A stretch of DNA of 64,000 nucleotides from Plantimonas leprariae (GTDB lineage: Bacteria; Pseudomonadota; Alphaproteobacteria; Rhizobiales; Rhizobiaceae): NCBI RefSeq assembly GCF_008802405.1, contig NZ_VZDO01000008.1:1-64000 (forward strand). Reading direction: 5' to 3'. Below, piece by piece: positions 14,249 through 23,439 of this stretch (positions within the stretch are counted from its first letter, which is position 1; each line of letters starts with the position of its first letter). The notes beneath the pieces are model-generated. The model was not told where the DNA came from, did not search any database, and worked only from the letters and a program-made list of their open reading frames with translations. A program made the translations under genes and the position numbers.

Positions 14249-15754
14249 TCAGTCTTCCTCGACGAACACCGTGTCGCGCTTGCGCCGGATCGCCGGCAGC
14301 GCGGCGACGACGACCGCGGCAAGCCCGAGGGCGAGGAGGCTCGCCGAGATCGGCCGTTCGAAGAAGACCAGCGCATTGCCGCGCGAGATGATCATCGCGC
14401 GCCGAAGGTGCTCTTCCAGGAGCGGCCCCAGCACGAAGCCGAGCAGCAGCGGCGCCGGCTCGCAGCCGAGGCGGATCAGGACGTAGCCGAGCACGCCGAA
14501 CACGCCGATCGCGTAGACGTCGAACGGATTGTTGTTGATCGAGTAGCAGCCGATCGAGGCGAAGATCACGATCGCCGGGAAGAGGACGCGGTAGGGGATC
14601 GTCAGCATCTTCACCCACAGCCCGATCAGCGGCAGGTTGAGGATGACGAGGAGGACGTTGCCGATCCACATCGAGGCGATGATGCCCCAGAACAGGGCGG
14701 GCTGCGAATTGATGACGTTCGGCCCCGGCGTGATGCCCTGCAGGATGAAAGCCCCGACGATCAGCGCCATCACCGGATGCGCCGGGATGCCGAGCGTCAG
14801 GAGCGGAATGAAGGACGTCTGCGCCGCGGCGTTGTTGGCGCTTTCGGGTCCTGCGACGCCCTGGATCGCGCCGCGCCCGAACTCGGACTTGTCCGTCGCG
14901 ACGTTCTTTTCCAGCGAATAGGAGGCGAAGGACGACAGGACGTGCCCGCCGCCCGGCAGGACGCCGAGGATCGAGCCGAGCGCGGTGCCGCGCAGCACCG
15001 GCGCGACGATCCGCCGGAAGTCGGCACGGCTGAGCCAGAGGCCGGAGACCGACTTCACCATGACGTCGCGTGTCGCCTCGTTCTCGAGGTTGCGGAAGAT
15101 TTCCGCGACTCCGAACACCCCGACGGCGATCGAGACGAAGTTGATGCCTTGGTAGAGTTCGAGCTGGCCGAACGTGAAGCGGGGTGTGCCGGTGTAGATG
15201 TCCTGCCCGACCGTGCCGAGCAACAGCCCCAGCACGATCATCGCGAGGGCCTTCACGACGGAGCCATGCGCGAGCGAGATCGACACGAGAAGCCCGAGCA
15301 CGATCAGCGCGAAATATTCCGGCGCGCCGAACTTGAGCGCCACGCGCGCCAGCGGCGGGGCGGCGAAGGCGAGAAGCAGGGTCGCGACGCAGCCCGCGAA
15401 GAACGAGCCGAGGGCGGCGGTCGCGAGCGCCGTGCCGGCCTGACCTTTCTTCGCCATCTGGTAGCCGTCGATGGCGGTGACGGCGGAGGACGATTCGCCC
15501 GGTAGGTTGATCAGGATCGCGGTGGTCGAGCCGCCGTACTGCGCGCCGTAGTAGATGCCGGAGAGCATGATCAGCGCCGTCACCGGCGCGAAGGTGAAGG
15601 TGATCGGCAGCAGCATCGCGATCGTCGCGGTCGGACCGATGCCGGGGAGGACGCCGACCAGCGTGCCCAGCAGCACGCCGATGAAGCACCAGAAGAGGTT
15701 GGTGAAGGTCAGCGCCGTTTCGAAGCCGAGCGCGAGGTTCGACAGGATCTCCAT
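14249..15754 (-). CDS. tctA: tripartite tricarboxylate transporter, large membrane subunit TctA
   Basis: 501-residue TctA subunit with about 12 membrane segments. It shows the family's signature blocks: GVLPGIGPTATIAMLLP (about 34-50), YYGAQYGGSTTAILINLPGE (about 69-88) and ILGVLPGGGHVLSSFASY (about 257-274). It forms the secondary transport channel for a carboxylate delivered by TctC. It follows tctB by 9 bp and is the last gene of a minus-strand tctC-tctB-tctA operon. The substrate cannot be told from sequence; citrate-like tricarboxylates are the type case. Confidence 0.93.
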   Translation of the reverse strand: MEILSNLALGFETALTFTNLFWCFIGVLLGTLVGVLPGIGPTATIAMLLPITFTFAPVTALIMLSGIYYGAQYGGSTTAILINLPGESSSAVTAIDGYQMAKKGQAGTALATAALGSFFAGCVATLLLAFAAPPLARVALKFGAPEYFALIVLGLLVSISLAHGSVVKALAMIVLGLLLGTVGQDIYTGTPRFTFGQLELYQGINFVSIAVGVFGVAEIFRNLENEATRDVMVKSVSGLWLSRADFRRIVAPVLRGTALGSILGVLPGGGHVLSSFASYSLEKNVATDKSEFGRGAIQGVAGPESANNAAAQTSFIPLLTLGIPAHPVMALIVGAFILQGITPGPNVINSQPALFWGIIASMWIGNVLLVILNLPLIGLWVKMLTIPYRVLFPAIVIFASIGCYSINNNPFDVYAIGVFGVLGYVLIRLGCEPAPLLLGFVLGPLLEEHLRRAMIISRGNALVFFERPISASLLALGLAAVVVAALPAIRRKRDTVFVEED

Positions 15755-15763
15755 GCCAGCCCT

Positions 15764-16246
15764 TCAGTTGTGCGCGAGCGGGCCGAAGACCGGCCCGATC
15801 GTCGGCAAGGACACGGCGAGGCCGACCTTGAAGACCAGCCAGGACAGCACCGACAGGAGCAGGGCGATGGCGAGCGCCGAGGCGATGCCGTTCTGCGTCG
15901 ACGCGAGGGCGACGATCGCGCCGCACAGGAAGACCACCGGCACGAGGCCGAGCGTCGGCCCGGCATAGCCGAAGATGCCGAGGGCGACGAGCGTGAGGAG
16001 GATGCCCTTCCAGGGCACGCCGCCGACCTCCGTCCGTCCTTCGAGGCGGAAGCCTGCCGCGATCACGGTCCCGCCGAGGATCACGAGCAGCACGGCGAGG
16101 ACCAGCGGGATGAAGCCCGGCCCCATGCGCAGGGCCCGGCCGAGCGGATAGCCTGTCGCCGCCCAGCCGAAAGCGAGCGCGATCGCGATGAAGATCGCCC
16201 CGGCGATCAGGTCGCGGTTCCGGTTCGTCTGCGTGACGGTGCTCAT
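15764..16246 (-). CDS. tctB: tripartite tricarboxylate transporter, small membrane subunit TctB
   Basis: 160 residues with four predicted membrane helices: LIAGAIFIAIALAFGWAATG, GFIPLVLAVLLVILGGTVIA, ILLTLVALGIFGYA and IASALAIALLLSVLSWLVFK. It has the TctB-typical YPLG..MGPGFIP motif (about 33-48). It works with TctA as the membrane part of a TTT importer. It lies 24 bp after tctC and 9 bp before tctA on the same strand. Confidence 0.9.
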   Translation of the reverse strand: MSTVTQTNRNRDLIAGAIFIAIALAFGWAATGYPLGRALRMGPGFIPLVLAVLLVILGGTVIAAGFRLEGRTEVGGVPWKGILLTLVALGIFGYAGPTLGLVPVVFLCGAIVALASTQNGIASALAIALLLSVLSWLVFKVGLAVSLPTIGPVFGPLAHN

Positions 16247-16270
16247 CGGTTTTTCAAGCCGACCCTGGGC

Positions 16271-17248
16271 TCAGTTGGCGTACTGGCCGGCGGCCTGGAT
16301 GATCGGCCGCCACAGCTCGATCTGCGAGGCGAGCTGCTGGCGCAGGGCGTCCGGCGTCGCCTCGTTCTCGGCGACCGGCGTCGTGCCGAGTTCGGCGAAG
16401 CGCCTGACCACCGTCTCGTCCTTCAGCGCCTTCTTCAGCGAGGCTTCCAGCTTCGCCACGACCGCCGGGTCCATGCCCGCCGGCCCGTAGAGGGCGTGCC
16501 ATATGGCGACGTCGAGCTTCGGCAGCCCGCCCTCCTTCGTGGTCGGCAGGTCCGGCAGCGAGGCGAGCCGTTCCGGCGTCGTCACCGCGTAAGCCTTGAT
16601 CTCCTTGGCCTTGATCTGGTTCGTCGTGTTCGTCGTCTGGTCGCACATCATGTCGACCTGACCGCCGAGGAGGTCGGTCATCATCGGCGCCGCTCCCTGA
16701 TACGGAACGGTCACGAACTGCACGCCGACCGCTTCCTGCAGCAGCATGCCGCAAAGATGCGACGCGGAGCCGATGCCGGCATTGGCGTAGGTCGTGTCCG
16801 CACCGTTGGCCTTCAGGTACGCGACGAGTTCCTCCATCGTGTTCGGCTCGAAGTCCTTGCGGCCGACGATCGTCATCGGCACCGCCGTGACGAGGCCGAT
16901 CGGCGAGAAGTCCTTCACCGGATCGAAGGCGAGCTGACGGTAGAGCGTCGGCGAGGTCGACATGCCGATATGGTGCAGAAGCAGGGTGTAGCCGTCGGGC
17001 TTGGCCTTCGCGACCTGTCCAGCGCCGAGCGTGCCGCCCGCGCCGCCGACGTTCTGGACGAGGACCTGCTGGCCGAGATCGGCGGACATCGACTGCGCGA
17101 CGAGGCGGGTCACCGTATCGGTCGGTCCACCCGCCGTGAACGGCACGACGATGGTGATCGGCTGCGTCGGATAGTTCTCCTGGGCGCTCGCGGTGCCGAT
17201 CGCGAGTGTCGCGGCGAGCGCCGCGAGCGCGAGGGACTTCATCAGCAT
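16271..17248 (-). CDS. tctC: tripartite tricarboxylate transporter substrate-binding protein TctC
   Basis: 325-residue periplasmic Bug/TctC binding protein. A signal peptide (LALAALAATLAIGTASA) precedes the family start YPTQPITIVVPFTAGGPTDT and the LVQNVGGAGGTLGAGQVAKA motif. It captures the carboxylate and hands it to TctA-TctB. The start at 17248 has a strong GGAGGAG site; a second ATG two codons later is possible. First gene of the tctC-tctB-tctA operon. An inverted repeat GGCGGCC/GGCCGCC at 17411-17429 sits upstream, between it and the preceding sugar-binding protein gene. Confidence 0.92.
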   Translation of the reverse strand: MLMKSLALAALAATLAIGTASAQENYPTQPITIVVPFTAGGPTDTVTRLVAQSMSADLGQQVLVQNVGGAGGTLGAGQVAKAKPDGYTLLLHHIGMSTSPTLYRQLAFDPVKDFSPIGLVTAVPMTIVGRKDFEPNTMEELVAYLKANGADTTYANAGIGSASHLCGMLLQEAVGVQFVTVPYQGAAPMMTDLLGGQVDMMCDQTTNTTNQIKAKEIKAYAVTTPERLASLPDLPTTKEGGLPKLDVAIWHALYGPAGMDPAVVAKLEASLKKALKDETVVRRFAELGTTPVAENEATPDALRQQLASQIELWRPIIQAAGQYAN

Positions 17249-17477
17249 AGGGGCTCCTCCCAGAGACGGTTCGGCGTCGGCCATGCGCATCCTCCCAGAT
17301 GGCTCCCGACGCCGATGCCGCGCTTTCGACGCGGCGGAAGGGACAAGAGAAAGCATTGCGCCGCCGATCGCAACGGCCGGCGGCCAAGCATCTCCAGATT
17401 TATCGATCCGGGCGGCCGCACCGGCCGCCGTCCGTCGCGGCGAAGCGCCCTGCCCCGCCGCGACGACGAGGCGCGCT

Positions 17478-18537: not shown

Positions 18538-19545
18538 TCACGTCTTCGAGGATCGGATCCTTTCGAGCAGCACGGCTCCCAGAATGAAGCTGCCTACGAA
18601 GAAACCCTGCCAGAACGGGTTCACGCCCGCGATCAACAGGGAATTGCGGATGACCTCGACGAGCACCGCGCCGATCGCCGCGCCGATGGCGGTGCCGAAG
18701 CCGCCGACGAGGCTCGCCCCGCCGATGACGGTGGCCGCGATGACCTGCAGTTCGTAGCCGGTACCGAGCGCGTTCGTCACGGCGCCGAGCCAGCCGACGA
18801 GGAACACGGAGGTCACCGCGGCCATCAGACCGCTGAAGGCGTAGGCGGAGATCTTGATCGGCTCGACCGGGATGCCGCAAAGGCGCGCCGCATCCTCGTT
18901 GCCGCCGACCGCGAACACGTAGCGCCCCCAGCGGGTCTTCGTCAGGAGGACGTGTAGGACGACGATGCCGACCGCGAGAGCGTAGATGACGTTGGGCAGC
19001 CCGAGCGTCCTGCCACCGCCGAGCTCGAGAAGCTGGTCGGTCCAGGGTCCGAACTCGTAGAAGACCGTATTCTGGCTGACGACGAGCGCGAGGCTGCGCC
19101 CCATCGACAGCGCCGCCAGCGTCACGACGAATGGCGGCAGCTTCAGGTAGGCGATCACCGCCCCGTTGAACGCGCCGCAGGCCGCGCCGAGCGCGAGCAC
19201 GGCGAGGATGGCGAGCGGCAGCGGCCAGCCGGCGACGAGCACAACGCCGAGCATGATGCCGCAAAGGCCGAGGATGGAGCCGACGGAGATGTCGATGCCG
19301 CCGCTGACGATCACCGGCGTCATGCCGAGCGCCATGACGCCGATGAAGCAGGCGTTCTGCAGGACGTTGAGGAGGTTGCCGGACGTGGCGAACTTCGGCG
19401 AGATCAGCGAAACGAGGATGCCGAGGACGACGATGGCGATGACGATCCACGCCTCCTGCGTGGTCAGGAGCCGCCCGAGCATGGATTGCCGCGGCACCGA
19501 CAAGAGGTCGACGTTCATGCCGGGCGGGTCGGAGGACATGGTCAT
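18538..19545 (-). CDS. sugar ABC transporter permease (second copy, RbsC type)
   Basis: 335 residues with about ten membrane segments. It has the RbsC/BPD_transp_2 hallmarks LLNVLQNACFIGVMALGMTPV, GGIDISVGSI (about 82-91), YLKLPPFVVTLAALS and GRYVFAVGGNEDAARLCGIPV, the coupling loop that contacts the ATPase. The start at 19545 (alternatives at 19539 and later) follows a GGAACGG site. No complete ATPase gene stands in front of it; only a 17-codon ATPase-like stub lies 14 bp upstream. It may therefore depend on the ATPase at 20829-22409. Confidence 0.88.
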   Translation of the reverse strand: MTMSSDPPGMNVDLLSVPRQSMLGRLLTTQEAWIVIAIVVLGILVSLISPKFATSGNLLNVLQNACFIGVMALGMTPVIVSGGIDISVGSILGLCGIMLGVVLVAGWPLPLAILAVLALGAACGAFNGAVIAYLKLPPFVVTLAALSMGRSLALVVSQNTVFYEFGPWTDQLLELGGGRTLGLPNVIYALAVGIVVLHVLLTKTRWGRYVFAVGGNEDAARLCGIPVEPIKISAYAFSGLMAAVTSVFLVGWLGAVTNALGTGYELQVIAATVIGGASLVGGFGTAIGAAIGAVLVEVIRNSLLIAGVNPFWQGFFVGSFILGAVLLERIRSSKT

Positions 19546-19559
19546 GGTGGTGCCGTTCC

Positions 19560-19613
19560 TCAGATCGCGCCGAAGTTCTTCGCTATGGCTTCGAGGCGAA
19601 CCGGAACCGGCAT
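19560..19613 (-). pseudogene. remnant of a sugar ABC ATPase gene (N-terminal stub)
   Basis: A minus-strand ATG opens a 17-codon frame reading MPVPVRLEAIAKNFGAI, then a stop. This is the standard first beta strand and loop of RbsA-type ATPases (pattern hLxxIxKxFGxh, compare LLEVSGLAKRFAGV in the intact ATPase of this locus). It breaks off exactly where the next residues would lead to Walker A. Permease 2 starts 14 bp further on. The simplest reading is an internal deletion of about 1.5 kb that removed the rest of the ATPase. A chance 17-codon frame cannot be ruled out. Confidence 0.6.
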
Positions 19614-19812
19614 GATCGCGTCATCCGTGATTCGTTGCTTCGAGCGAACAGCAAACATGCCACTGGAGAAGCGTCAATCTCCGCGTCGCGGCAAATCATT
19701 GCTGCGATGCACTCGTGGACGTTAGGTTTCTATGTCCGGATAAGCTTGGGTTTCCTTCAGACGCGATGATACGACGCGCAGGAAACCGTCGCGGGAGGAG
19801 CGGCCGCCACGG

Positions 19813-20832
19813 CTAGCTCAGGCGCGCGCGCGACTTCAGCCAGCGGTCGAAGGCGACCGCGCCGATCAGGATCAGCCCGATGACGACCTGCTGCGTGTAG
19901 GAGGAGACGTTGTTCAGCACCAGGCCGTTGACCAGGACGCCGATCAACGCCGCGCCGATCACCGTGCCGCCGACGCTCCCGATCCCGCCGAACAGCGAGG
20001 TGCCGCCGATCACCACCGCCGAGATCACGGTCAGTTCGTAGCCGATGCCGGCGACCGCCTCCGCGGAGTTCAATCGCGCCGCGAGCACGAAGGCCGCGAG
20101 GCCGGAAAAGAAGCCGACGATGAGGTAGACCGAGACGAGGATGCGATCGACGCGCAGCCCCGACAGGCGCGCGGCCTCCGCATTGCCGCCGACCGCGTAG
20201 ACCGCGCGGCCGTAGCGGGTGTAGCGCAAAACGACGTGGCAGAGGAGCGCGGCGAGCCCGAAGATGATCACCGGCACCGGCACGGGACCGACGAGGCCGG
20301 TGCCGAACCAGCGCATCGAAGCGTCGAAGCCCGAGATCGGGCCGCCGCCGGAGAGCGTCAGCGTCAGGCCGCGGAACACGGTGAGGCCGCCGAGCGTCAC
20401 CACGAAGGGCGGCACCTTCAACCGGGTGACGACGAGGCCCTGCAGACCGCCTGCGAGCGTTCCGACGACGAGCGCCGCGGCGAGCGCCCCGAACCAGCCG
20501 TAGCCGGAATGGCTGGCCGCCCCGAGCGAGAGCGTGTTCGCCGTCCCGCCCTTGGCGACCACCGCGGCCACCATGCCGGAAAAGGCGACCAGCGAGCCGA
20601 CCGACAGGTCGATGCCGGCGGTCAGGATCACGAAGGTCATGCCGAGCGCGATGAGGCCGGTGATCGAGATCTGCCGCATGACGTTGAAGAGGTTGGCCGG
20701 GGACAGGAAATTCGGGTTCATCAGGGCGAACACGGCCATGAGCCCGACGAGGAAGATCAGCGGACCGAAACGCGTGACGATGCGAAGGACGTCGATCTTC
20801 CGGTGCTCGCGCGCGTCGCTCGTGATCGTCAC
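19813..20832 (-). CDS. sugar ABC transporter permease (first copy, RbsC type)
   Basis: 339-residue RbsC-type permease with about ten membrane helices. Motifs: LFNVMRQISITGLIALGMTFV, AGIDLSVGSLVAFSGM (about 67-82), RLKVPPFVVTLGGLTVFRG and GRAVYAVGGNAEAARLSGLRV, the coupling helix loop. It overlaps the upstream ATPase stop by ATGA (20829-20832), so the two are translationally coupled. It imports a monosaccharide together with the ATPase at 20829-22409 and the binding protein at 22480-23439. Confidence 0.9.
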   Translation of the reverse strand: MTITSDAREHRKIDVLRIVTRFGPLIFLVGLMAVFALMNPNFLSPANLFNVMRQISITGLIALGMTFVILTAGIDLSVGSLVAFSGMVAAVVAKGGTANTLSLGAASHSGYGWFGALAAALVVGTLAGGLQGLVVTRLKVPPFVVTLGGLTVFRGLTLTLSGGGPISGFDASMRWFGTGLVGPVPVPVIIFGLAALLCHVVLRYTRYGRAVYAVGGNAEAARLSGLRVDRILVSVYLIVGFFSGLAAFVLAARLNSAEAVAGIGYELTVISAVVIGGTSLFGGIGSVGGTVIGAALIGVLVNGLVLNNVSSYTQQVVIGLILIGAVAFDRWLKSRARLS

Positions 20833-22409
20833 CGGCCCTCTCCCGCCCGCCCGTCCAGCGCCATCAGCGCCATCAGCTTCGCTTCACTCGCTTCCACGGC
20901 CGGCATCTCGCCGGTGATCCGGCCGCCGCGCATGGCGACGATCCTGTCGCTGACCGCCAGAACCTCCGGCAGTTCCGAGGAGATCATCATCACGGCGATG
21001 CCGCGCGCGGCGAGTTGCACGAGGATCTGGTGCACTTCCGCCTTGGCGCCGACGTCGACGCCGCGCGTCGGCTCGTCGACGATCAGCACCGCCGGATCGC
21101 GCGCCAGCCACCGGGCGAGGATCACCTTCTGCTGGTTGCCGCCCGACAGCCCGTCGATCCGCTGCTCGGCATTCGCCATGCGGATGTTCAGCGCCGAGCG
21201 GTACCCAGCGAGCGCCTTGCGCTCGCGCCGCTCGGCCATGAAGCCGAGCCGGCCGGAGTAGCGGCCGAGCGCCGCGACGGAGAAGTTGGCGAGGATCGCG
21301 AGCGCGGGAAAGATCGCCTGCTGCTTGCGGTCCTCCGGCACCAGCCCGATGCCGAGCGCGATCGCTTCCGCCGGGGAACTCGCCGCGATCGGGCGGCCGT
21401 CCAGCGTCACCGTCCCGGCAGTACACCGGTCGGCGCCGAAGATCGCCCGCGCGAGTTCCGTACGACCCGACCCGACCAGCCCGGCGACGCCGAGGATTTC
21501 GCCTGCACGGAGTTCGAGGTCGATGCCGTCGAGCACGATCGCGTGCGGCGCGTTCAGGTCCCGCCGCGTCCGCAGCCCCCGGACGGACAGCCGCACCGGC
21601 CCCGCGTCGGCGCGCTGCGAAGGCCGCGCGTAGAGTTCCGCCGCGGCGCGCCCGACCATCTTCTCGACGATGCGGGAGGGCGGGATCGGCGCGCCGTTGC
21701 GTTCCAGCCGCCCGGCGAGGCGGCCGTCGCGCAGCACCGTCATGCGGTCGCAGATCGCCGAGGCCTCCTCCAGGCGGTGCGTCACGAACATGATCGCGAC
21801 GCCCTCCCGGCGCAGGCGGTCCATGATGGCGAGCAGCCGCGTCACCTCGGTCTCCGACAACGCCGAGGTCGGCTCGTCCATGATGATGACGCGCGAGCGG
21901 AGCGACAGCGCCCGCGCGATCTCGACCATCTGCTGCTCGGCGACCGACAGCGCCGAGACCGGCGTTTCCGGGTCCATGTCGAGGCCGACGCGGGCGATGA
22001 TGGCGCGCGCTTCCCGTCGCATCCGCCGCCAGTCCACCAGCCCGAAGCGCGTCAGCGGGGCGCGTCCGACGAAGATGTTCTCGGCCACCGTCAGCGTCGG
22101 GATGAGGCTCAGTTCCTGGTAGATCGTGACGATGCCGAGCCGGCGCGCGTCCTGCGGATCGGCGAAGGCGACCTCGTTGCCGTCGATGCGGATCGTGCCG
22201 CCGCTCGGCGGCTGCACCCCGGACAGGATTTTCAGAAGGGTCGACTTGCCCGCGCCGTTCTCGCCCATCAGGCCGTGAACCTCGCCGGCCCGGAGATCGA
22301 GCGACACGTCGTCGAGCGCGGCGACGCCGGCGAACCGCTTGGCGAGCCCGCTCACCTCCAGAAGCGGTCGACCGCCCTCGGCATCCGGGCGCACGGCGGG
22401 AACGTCCAT
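20829..22409 (-). CDS. sugar ABC transporter ATP-binding protein, two NBDs (RbsA/MglA type)
   Basis: 526 residues from the ATG at 22409; a TTG at 22430 would add seven residues, and neither start has a strong ribosome-binding site. NBD1 has Walker A GENGAGKST (49-57), signature LSVAEQQMVEIARAL and Walker B VIIMDEPTSAL. NBD2 has the degenerate Walker A GLVGSGRTEL usual for this family, signature LSGGNQQKVILARWL and VLIVDEPTRGVD. It energises import through permease 1, and perhaps also permease 2, whose own ATPase appears lost. It lies 70 bp after the binding-protein gene and overlaps permease 1 by ATGA. Confidence 0.92.
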   Translation of the reverse strand: MDVPAVRPDAEGGRPLLEVSGLAKRFAGVAALDDVSLDLRAGEVHGLMGENGAGKSTLLKILSGVQPPSGGTIRIDGNEVAFADPQDARRLGIVTIYQELSLIPTLTVAENIFVGRAPLTRFGLVDWRRMRREARAIIARVGLDMDPETPVSALSVAEQQMVEIARALSLRSRVIIMDEPTSALSETEVTRLLAIMDRLRREGVAIMFVTHRLEEASAICDRMTVLRDGRLAGRLERNGAPIPPSRIVEKMVGRAAAELYARPSQRADAGPVRLSVRGLRTRRDLNAPHAIVLDGIDLELRAGEILGVAGLVGSGRTELARAIFGADRCTAGTVTLDGRPIAASSPAEAIALGIGLVPEDRKQQAIFPALAILANFSVAALGRYSGRLGFMAERRERKALAGYRSALNIRMANAEQRIDGLSGGNQQKVILARWLARDPAVLIVDEPTRGVDVGAKAEVHQILVQLAARGIAVMMISSELPEVLAVSDRIVAMRGGRITGEMPAVEASEAKLMALMALDGRAGEGR

Positions 22410-22479
22410 CGGCGAGGCTTTCAGGACCAACGGGCCGGCGGAGCGAACGCCCGCTCCGCGCGACGTTTCACGGCATCGC

Positions 22480-23439
22480 CTACATGGTTTCCTTGATGCG
22501 CTCGGCCTTGTCGAGATTGTCCTTGCCGATGACGATCGGCGTCAGGAGCACCAGGGTTTCGGCCGGTTTCGTCTTGGTCTTCGCGAAATCCACGGCGATG
22601 CGCAGCGCCCGGCGCGACTGCTCGCCCGGGAACTGCTCCACCGTGCCGGCGAGCTTGCCGTCGCGCACCGCGGCGAGCGCTTCAGGAAGCGCGTCGAACC
22701 CGTAGATCTTCACGTCGGTGTGGCCGGCCGCGGTGACCGCCTCCAGCGCGCCGAGCGCCATGTCGTCGTTGGCGCAGACGATCACGTCCGGCTTGCCGTT
22801 CGCGGCAAGGCCAGCTTCCGTGACGGACAACCCTTCGGCGCGCGCGAAGTTCGCGGTCTGCTCGAAGACGATCTTGTACTTGTCCTGCCTGTCGAGGATT
22901 GCGTGGACGCCCTTATTGCGGTCGATGGCGGGTCCCGCACCCGGTTGGCCCTGCAGGTGGAAGATCTTCGCACCGTCCGGAAACGCCGCCATGATCGCCT
23001 GGGCCTGCGCTTCGCCGCCCTTGGCGTTGTCCGCCCCGACATGGGCGAGGATGCCGTCGACGCCGTCGACGCGCCGGTCGATCGTGACCACCGGGATGCC
23101 CGCCTGCACGGCCTGCTCCACGGCGGGAGCCAGCGCGTTGACGTCGAGCGGCGAGATGACGATCGCATCGACCTTCTGCACGATCGCGGCTTCGACGTCG
23201 CCGGTCTGCTTGGGGGCGGAGTTCTGTCCGTCGCTCTCGATCAGCTTGATGCCGCCGATCGCGCTCGCCTCGGCCTTGATCTGGTTCAGCATGTGGACAA
23301 AGAACGGAAAGCCGAGATTGGGCACGGATGCGAGGATCGTCAGGCCGGCGTCCTGCGCCAGCGCCGCTCCGCCGCCTCCGGTCGCCAGCAGCGCGCCGGC
23401 AGCGGCCGACGTCAGCAGGAATGCGCGTCTATCGAGCAT
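22480..23439 (-). CDS. sugar ABC transporter periplasmic binding protein (first copy)
   Basis: 319-residue RbsB-type protein. The N-terminus MLDRRAFLLTSAAAGALLATGGGGAALAQ has a twin-arginine-like RRAFLLTS, so Tat export is possible. Lobe strands include LTILASVPNLGFPFFVHMLNQ, VDAIVISPLDVNAL (about 90-103), IPVVTIDRRVDGVDG (about 119-133), VIVCANDDMALGALEAV and KIYGFDA. The D-R-R hinge segment is typical of pentose- and galactose-type binders. The start at 23439 has a GGGAGGAA site; the longer open frame upstream to 23976 is not coding. It is the first gene of the importer operon and is divergent from cydA. Confidence 0.9.
   Translation of the reverse strand: MLDRRAFLLTSAAAGALLATGGGGAALAQDAGLTILASVPNLGFPFFVHMLNQIKAEASAIGGIKLIESDGQNSAPKQTGDVEAAIVQKVDAIVISPLDVNALAPAVEQAVQAGIPVVTIDRRVDGVDGILAHVGADNAKGGEAQAQAIMAAFPDGAKIFHLQGQPGAGPAIDRNKGVHAILDRQDKYKIVFEQTANFARAEGLSVTEAGLAANGKPDVIVCANDDMALGALEAVTAAGHTDVKIYGFDALPEALAAVRDGKLAGTVEQFPGEQSRRALRIAVDFAKTKTKPAETLVLLTPIVIGKDNLDKAERIKETM

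Follow-up and report, generated by a model that had tools for sequence, protein, structure and literature searches.

Why does one sugar ABC transporter locus encode two permeases and two binding proteins, and a single full ATPase? The locus lies on the minus strand of the window, the 64,000 nucleotide stretch of Plantimonas leprariae DNA analysed here, and its gene content is borne out by open reading frames and profile matches (Table 1). The initial annotation explained the missing ATPase by a deletion, of which a 17-codon minus strand frame, the opening of an ATPase that stops 14 bp before permease 2, would be the remains. Translation and coordinates agree with this description, and the loss itself stands. 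As for the gene count, the locus consists of two separate transporters side by side, one of which is now without its ATPase.

Table 1. Positions of the features of the sugar ABC transporter locus in the window
Feature	Position	Strand	Basis or remark
ATPase relic: start codon, 17 codons (MPVPVRLEAIAKNFGAI) and original TGA	19560..19613	-	Translation, homology
Deletion junction	19562..19563	-	Between last base of codon 17 (19563) and stop codon (19562)
Stop codon overlapping the Shine-Dalgarno-like GAGGA of permease 2 (TGAGGAACGG...)	19546..19562	-	14-bp spacing as in A. endophytica
Permease 2, CUT2-type sugar ABC permease, 335 aa	18538..19545	-	Pfam PF02653 (BPD_transp_2); 89% identity with the A. 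endophytica permease
Binding protein 2, periplasmic sugar-binding protein, 338 aa	17478..18494	-	Pfam PF13407 (Peripla_BP_4); all relatives have an orthologue in the same operon
Conserved upstream region of the operon	19614..19679	-	Inside 117-bp match to A. endophytica
First permease of the locus	20832..19813	-	
Neighbouring two-domain (RbsA/AraG-like) ATPase	20829..22391 (ORF 22430..20829)	-	Two ABC domains; NCBIfam AraG/RbsA-type matches below cut-off
First binding protein of the locus	about 23439..22480	-	

The two transporters

Permease 2 and binding protein 2 score far over the cut-offs of their Pfam families, PF02653 and PF13407, which assigns them to a CUT2-type importer. Neither protein reached an NCBIfam equivalog cut-off. 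The TGA of the stub ends at 19560 and the ATG of permease 2 is at 19545, which leaves a gap of 14 bp. Upstream of the stub we found TTGACG (19677..19672) and TTGCTG (19654..19649) with a 17-bp spacer. The pair is promoter-like in its arrangement and may act as a promoter; a consensus scan of the region called neither a promoter nor a terminator.

Directly upstream and in the same direction, window positions 19680-23439 contain a complete sugar ABC operon of the two-domain type, with genes for a binding protein, an ATPase and a permease. For the approximately 130 bp upstream of 19680, the relatives gave no match. The two-domain ATPase has its closest relatives in Aureimonas sp. Leaf427 (81%) and Aureimonas sp. 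AU22 (77%), and in neither strain are they beside the single-domain operon described below. Since these relatives are not located next to the frc-like operon, a rearrangement has placed the two transporters side by side.

Intact operons in related strains

An intact ATPase gene of 247 codons is located directly upstream of the permease in Aureimonas endophytica (L048), Aureimonas sp. AU22 (L049) and Aureimonas sp. Leaf427 (L050), where the permease is 89%, 87% and 85% identical to permease 2, respectively. The order ATPase, permease, binding protein is also intact on two Shinella zoogloeoides plasmids (L157 and L158) and in genome G215 (L159). A plasmid search gave partial matches only, and these led to the intact Shinella operons. 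The intact ATPase was found at the same place in six out of six operons with a permease 70-89% identical to permease 2. At E <= 1e-90 the binding protein had matches in only 4 of the 395 genomes of the family, the one analysed here included. We found the same deletion in no other genome, and every relative examined is intact, so that the deletion is seen in one genome.

The three Aureimonas operons have the gene order, the stop codon and the upstream motif in common with the window, and that of A. endophytica also the 14-bp spacing between stop codon and permease. They differ in that they keep the 247-codon ATPase where the window keeps 17 codons, and in their upstream neighbours. By the appearance of the sequence only, we take the neighbouring frame to be MarR-like in A. 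endophytica, where it is short, and ROK-like in AU22.

The initial annotation predicted that an intact ATPase would continue straight after FGAI. It does so in the relatives, and it ends at the stop codon that is preserved in the window. We saw neither relatives with the gap and no ATPase nor a stub unlike any ATPase; the relatives carry the gene, as the interpretation of the stub as a fossil implies.

The intact version of the transporter is located on large Shinella plasmids (L157, L158). In L157 it adjoins genes for a ROK regulator, a sugar dehydrogenase and an isomerase, which is a clue to the substrate class.

Identity of the lost gene

The intact homologue of 247 codons contains one ABC_tran stretch, and its alignment to RbsA models extends over their first half only. 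The stub had been assigned to an RbsA-type ATPase of about 500 codons. It does derive from an ATPase, while the size and type are to be corrected: the gene was single-domain, with 247 codons, of which 230 are deleted. A two-domain RbsA-type ATPase was rejected as the lost gene because the intact homologue has one ABC domain. The lost ATPase was not found elsewhere in this assembly, where the best match is 72% identical and is the ATPase of another operon.

The architecture resembles that of the CUT2-type fructose importer FrcBCA of Sinorhizobium meliloti (PMC10433430), with a single-domain ATPase, one permease gene and one binding protein. FrcBCA differs from the operon in the window in gene order, and the ATPase of the latter has been lost. 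FrcA has the size of a single-domain ATPase.

Homology, position, frame and length of the stub, the intact gene in relatives and its absence elsewhere in the assembly are all established, and the stub is almost certainly the relic of an ATPase gene that was removed by deletion. The original operon would have encoded a three-gene sugar ABC importer, with the single-domain ATPase as the first gene followed by permease and binding protein. All sequence from the end of codon 17 up to the stop codon would then have gone in an in-frame deletion of 690 bp, with the promoter region, start codon and first 17 codons retained on one side and the stop codon and the ribosome-binding site of the permease on the other. 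Through this clean in-frame deletion the bacterium lost the motor gene and kept the channel and the binding protein. As a gene loss this is ordinary and lineage-specific, and its junction is well defined. Permease 2 and binding protein 2 are probably still expressed.

Deletion junction

Alignment of the junction to A. endophytica by blastn allowed both ends of the deletion to be placed. The left piece, window 19679..19563 (query 134-250), corresponds to L048 5178-5293 with 77% identity, and the right piece, from window 19563 onward (query 250-1283), corresponds to L048 5983-7018 with 87% identity, through the permease. Collinearity with A. endophytica holds on both sides of the gap, in which 690 bp, or 230 codons, are missing in frame. 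The left end is located after codon 17 (GGCGCGATC), while the right end directly precedes the stop codon of the ATPase; 1 bp is shared. The stop codon of the stub aligns with that of the intact gene, and the GAGGA and the 14-bp spacing are kept. The deletion spared the ribosome-binding site of the permease as first supposed, TGAGGAACGG being present in both the window and A. endophytica.

Slippage between GAI-coding repeats, GGCGCGATC near the start and GGGGCCATC near the end of the A. endophytica gene, was considered as a route to the deletion and rejected. In all eight ATPases compared, three codons separate the end repeat from the stop codon, and the window has none. Slippage is disfavoured because it would have left those three codons in the window, and a simple junction with 1 bp overlap is more parsimonious.

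Constraint after the loss

In its 17 codons the stub differs from A. endophytica by 5 replacements and 2 silent changes, and the three closest intact copies are identical to one another at all five replaced residues. Approximately 1.1 replacements are expected under ATPase-like constraint (5 seen, p about 0.005, for 17 codons only), and neutrality predicts about 8, with p = 0.16 for a count of at most 5. Fisher's test of the stub (5:2) against the pooled permease and binding protein gave p = 0.045. The 5:2 ratio fits release from constraint, as judged on 17 codons only, and the stub is presumably no longer under selection. A stub of this length dates the deletion poorly.

For the permease and the binding protein, dN/dS against A. 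endophytica was 0.146 and 0.117, respectively. Branch values for the two genes were similar, with 0.11-0.17 on the window lineage and 0.10-0.17 on the sister lineage. In five of six settings, a simple Poisson model preferred constraint that persisted beyond the loss, by 2.1 to 3.4 log units; the sixth, with the lowest baseline, gave -0.2, and the outcome depends on the assumed baseline. These constraint estimates come from counting methods on few sites. The constraint on permease and binding protein is a modest hint that the transporter still works, driven by another ATPase.

Fate of the importer

Loss of the ATPase may instead have inactivated the transporter, in which case the whole operon is dying and permease and binding protein are pseudogenes in waiting. 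We give this nearly, though not quite, an even chance. A dedicated ATPase is normally required: frcA mutants of S. meliloti nearly lose fructose transport, which is barely above background (PMC10433430). A recent deletion would also leave the other genes looking intact. On the other hand, permease and binding protein are normally constrained on the window branch whereas the stub shows no constraint, and the joint model mostly favours continued constraint.

A permease 2 that is still working would have to use another ATPase. Importers driven by MsmK are CUT1, a different class of sugar importer. In Streptococcus, MsmK is encoded elsewhere and drives sugar ABC importers that lack an ATPase of their own (PMC4519317). 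These systems set a precedent for ATPase sharing, which may also take place in the genome studied here. An active transporter would most plausibly borrow the 72% identical ATPase encoded elsewhere in the same assembly (G000:C8:49619-50338). The identity of this C8 ATPase is to the ATPase of the relatives; the value for the first domain of the neighbouring two-domain ATPase is 41%. A permease with 53% identity to permease 2 adjoins the C8 ATPase. We tentatively put a transporter working with a borrowed ATPase at somewhat under an even prospect. The more specific proposal, that a CUT2-type importer now depends on the ATPase of a paralogue and that its permease is adapting to the new partner, is rather unlikely. 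One replacement in the permease is specific to the window, L229P. It directly follows the conserved GGNxxAARLxGI loop and gives the residue that the paralogous C8 permease has at this site; as a sign of adaptation this single site is a hint only.

Over the whole genome (G000, 4.8 Mb) we counted 27 sugar ABC permease matches and about 150 or more ABC ATPase matches. With this many ABC ATPase matches, spare ATPases are plentiful. A literature search for CUT2 importers lacking an ATPase found nothing relevant. The locus is a natural experiment, in which one in-frame deletion has stripped an ABC importer of its motor subunit and of nothing else, and ATPase sharing by this importer class becomes directly testable in this strain.

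Other readings of the stub

The stub could be kept by selection as a short leader frame, with its translation coupled to that of permease 2. The frame is still open, its stop codon overlaps the ribosome-binding site of the permease and the deletion is in frame. However, the overlap and the spacing are simply inherited from the intact operon, and a deletion has a one-in-three chance of being in frame. The codons of the stub are also drifting, yet coupling alone needs an open frame and not particular residues. Taken together, we consider a selected leader improbable.

The assembly is a draft of 39 contigs, and the ATPase might be present in the organism and have been collapsed out of the contig. 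Such an artefact is very improbable. The junction is located inside a 216-kb contig, and the repeat over it is too short for collapse: the exact match is ~1 bp, and the GAI-coding repeats agree at 7-8 of 9 bp. In addition, the stub has diverged (5 replacements to 2 silent changes) at residues that are invariant in close intact copies. Such divergence is expected after loss, but not if the assembler had cut an intact gene short.

That a frame of just 17 codons resembles the start of an ATPase by chance has next to no probability, since 12 of its 17 residues are identical to codons 1-17 of the A. endophytica ATPase as against 7 or 8 at best in 20 shuffled 64-kb sequences, and since collinear DNA homology to A. 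endophytica extends over 117 bp and ends at the last codon of the stub (77% identity, E = 7e-19, blastn); the collinear relatives already refute this reading. Among the 127,894 segments of 17 residues that the six-frame translation of the window offers, the next best matched at 7 of 17 residues.

Further observations

Binding protein 2 is followed by a tripartite tricarboxylate transporter set at window positions 14249-17356 on the minus strand, of which the TctC receptor matches Pfam. We take two further frames of this region to be TctB- and TctA-like, by their appearance only. In Leaf427, two other matches to the two-domain ATPase, at G420:C14:7705-9189 and G420:C12:388195-389688, contain in-frame TGA codons, 2 and 1, respectively. 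Both are possibly further broken sugar ATPases.
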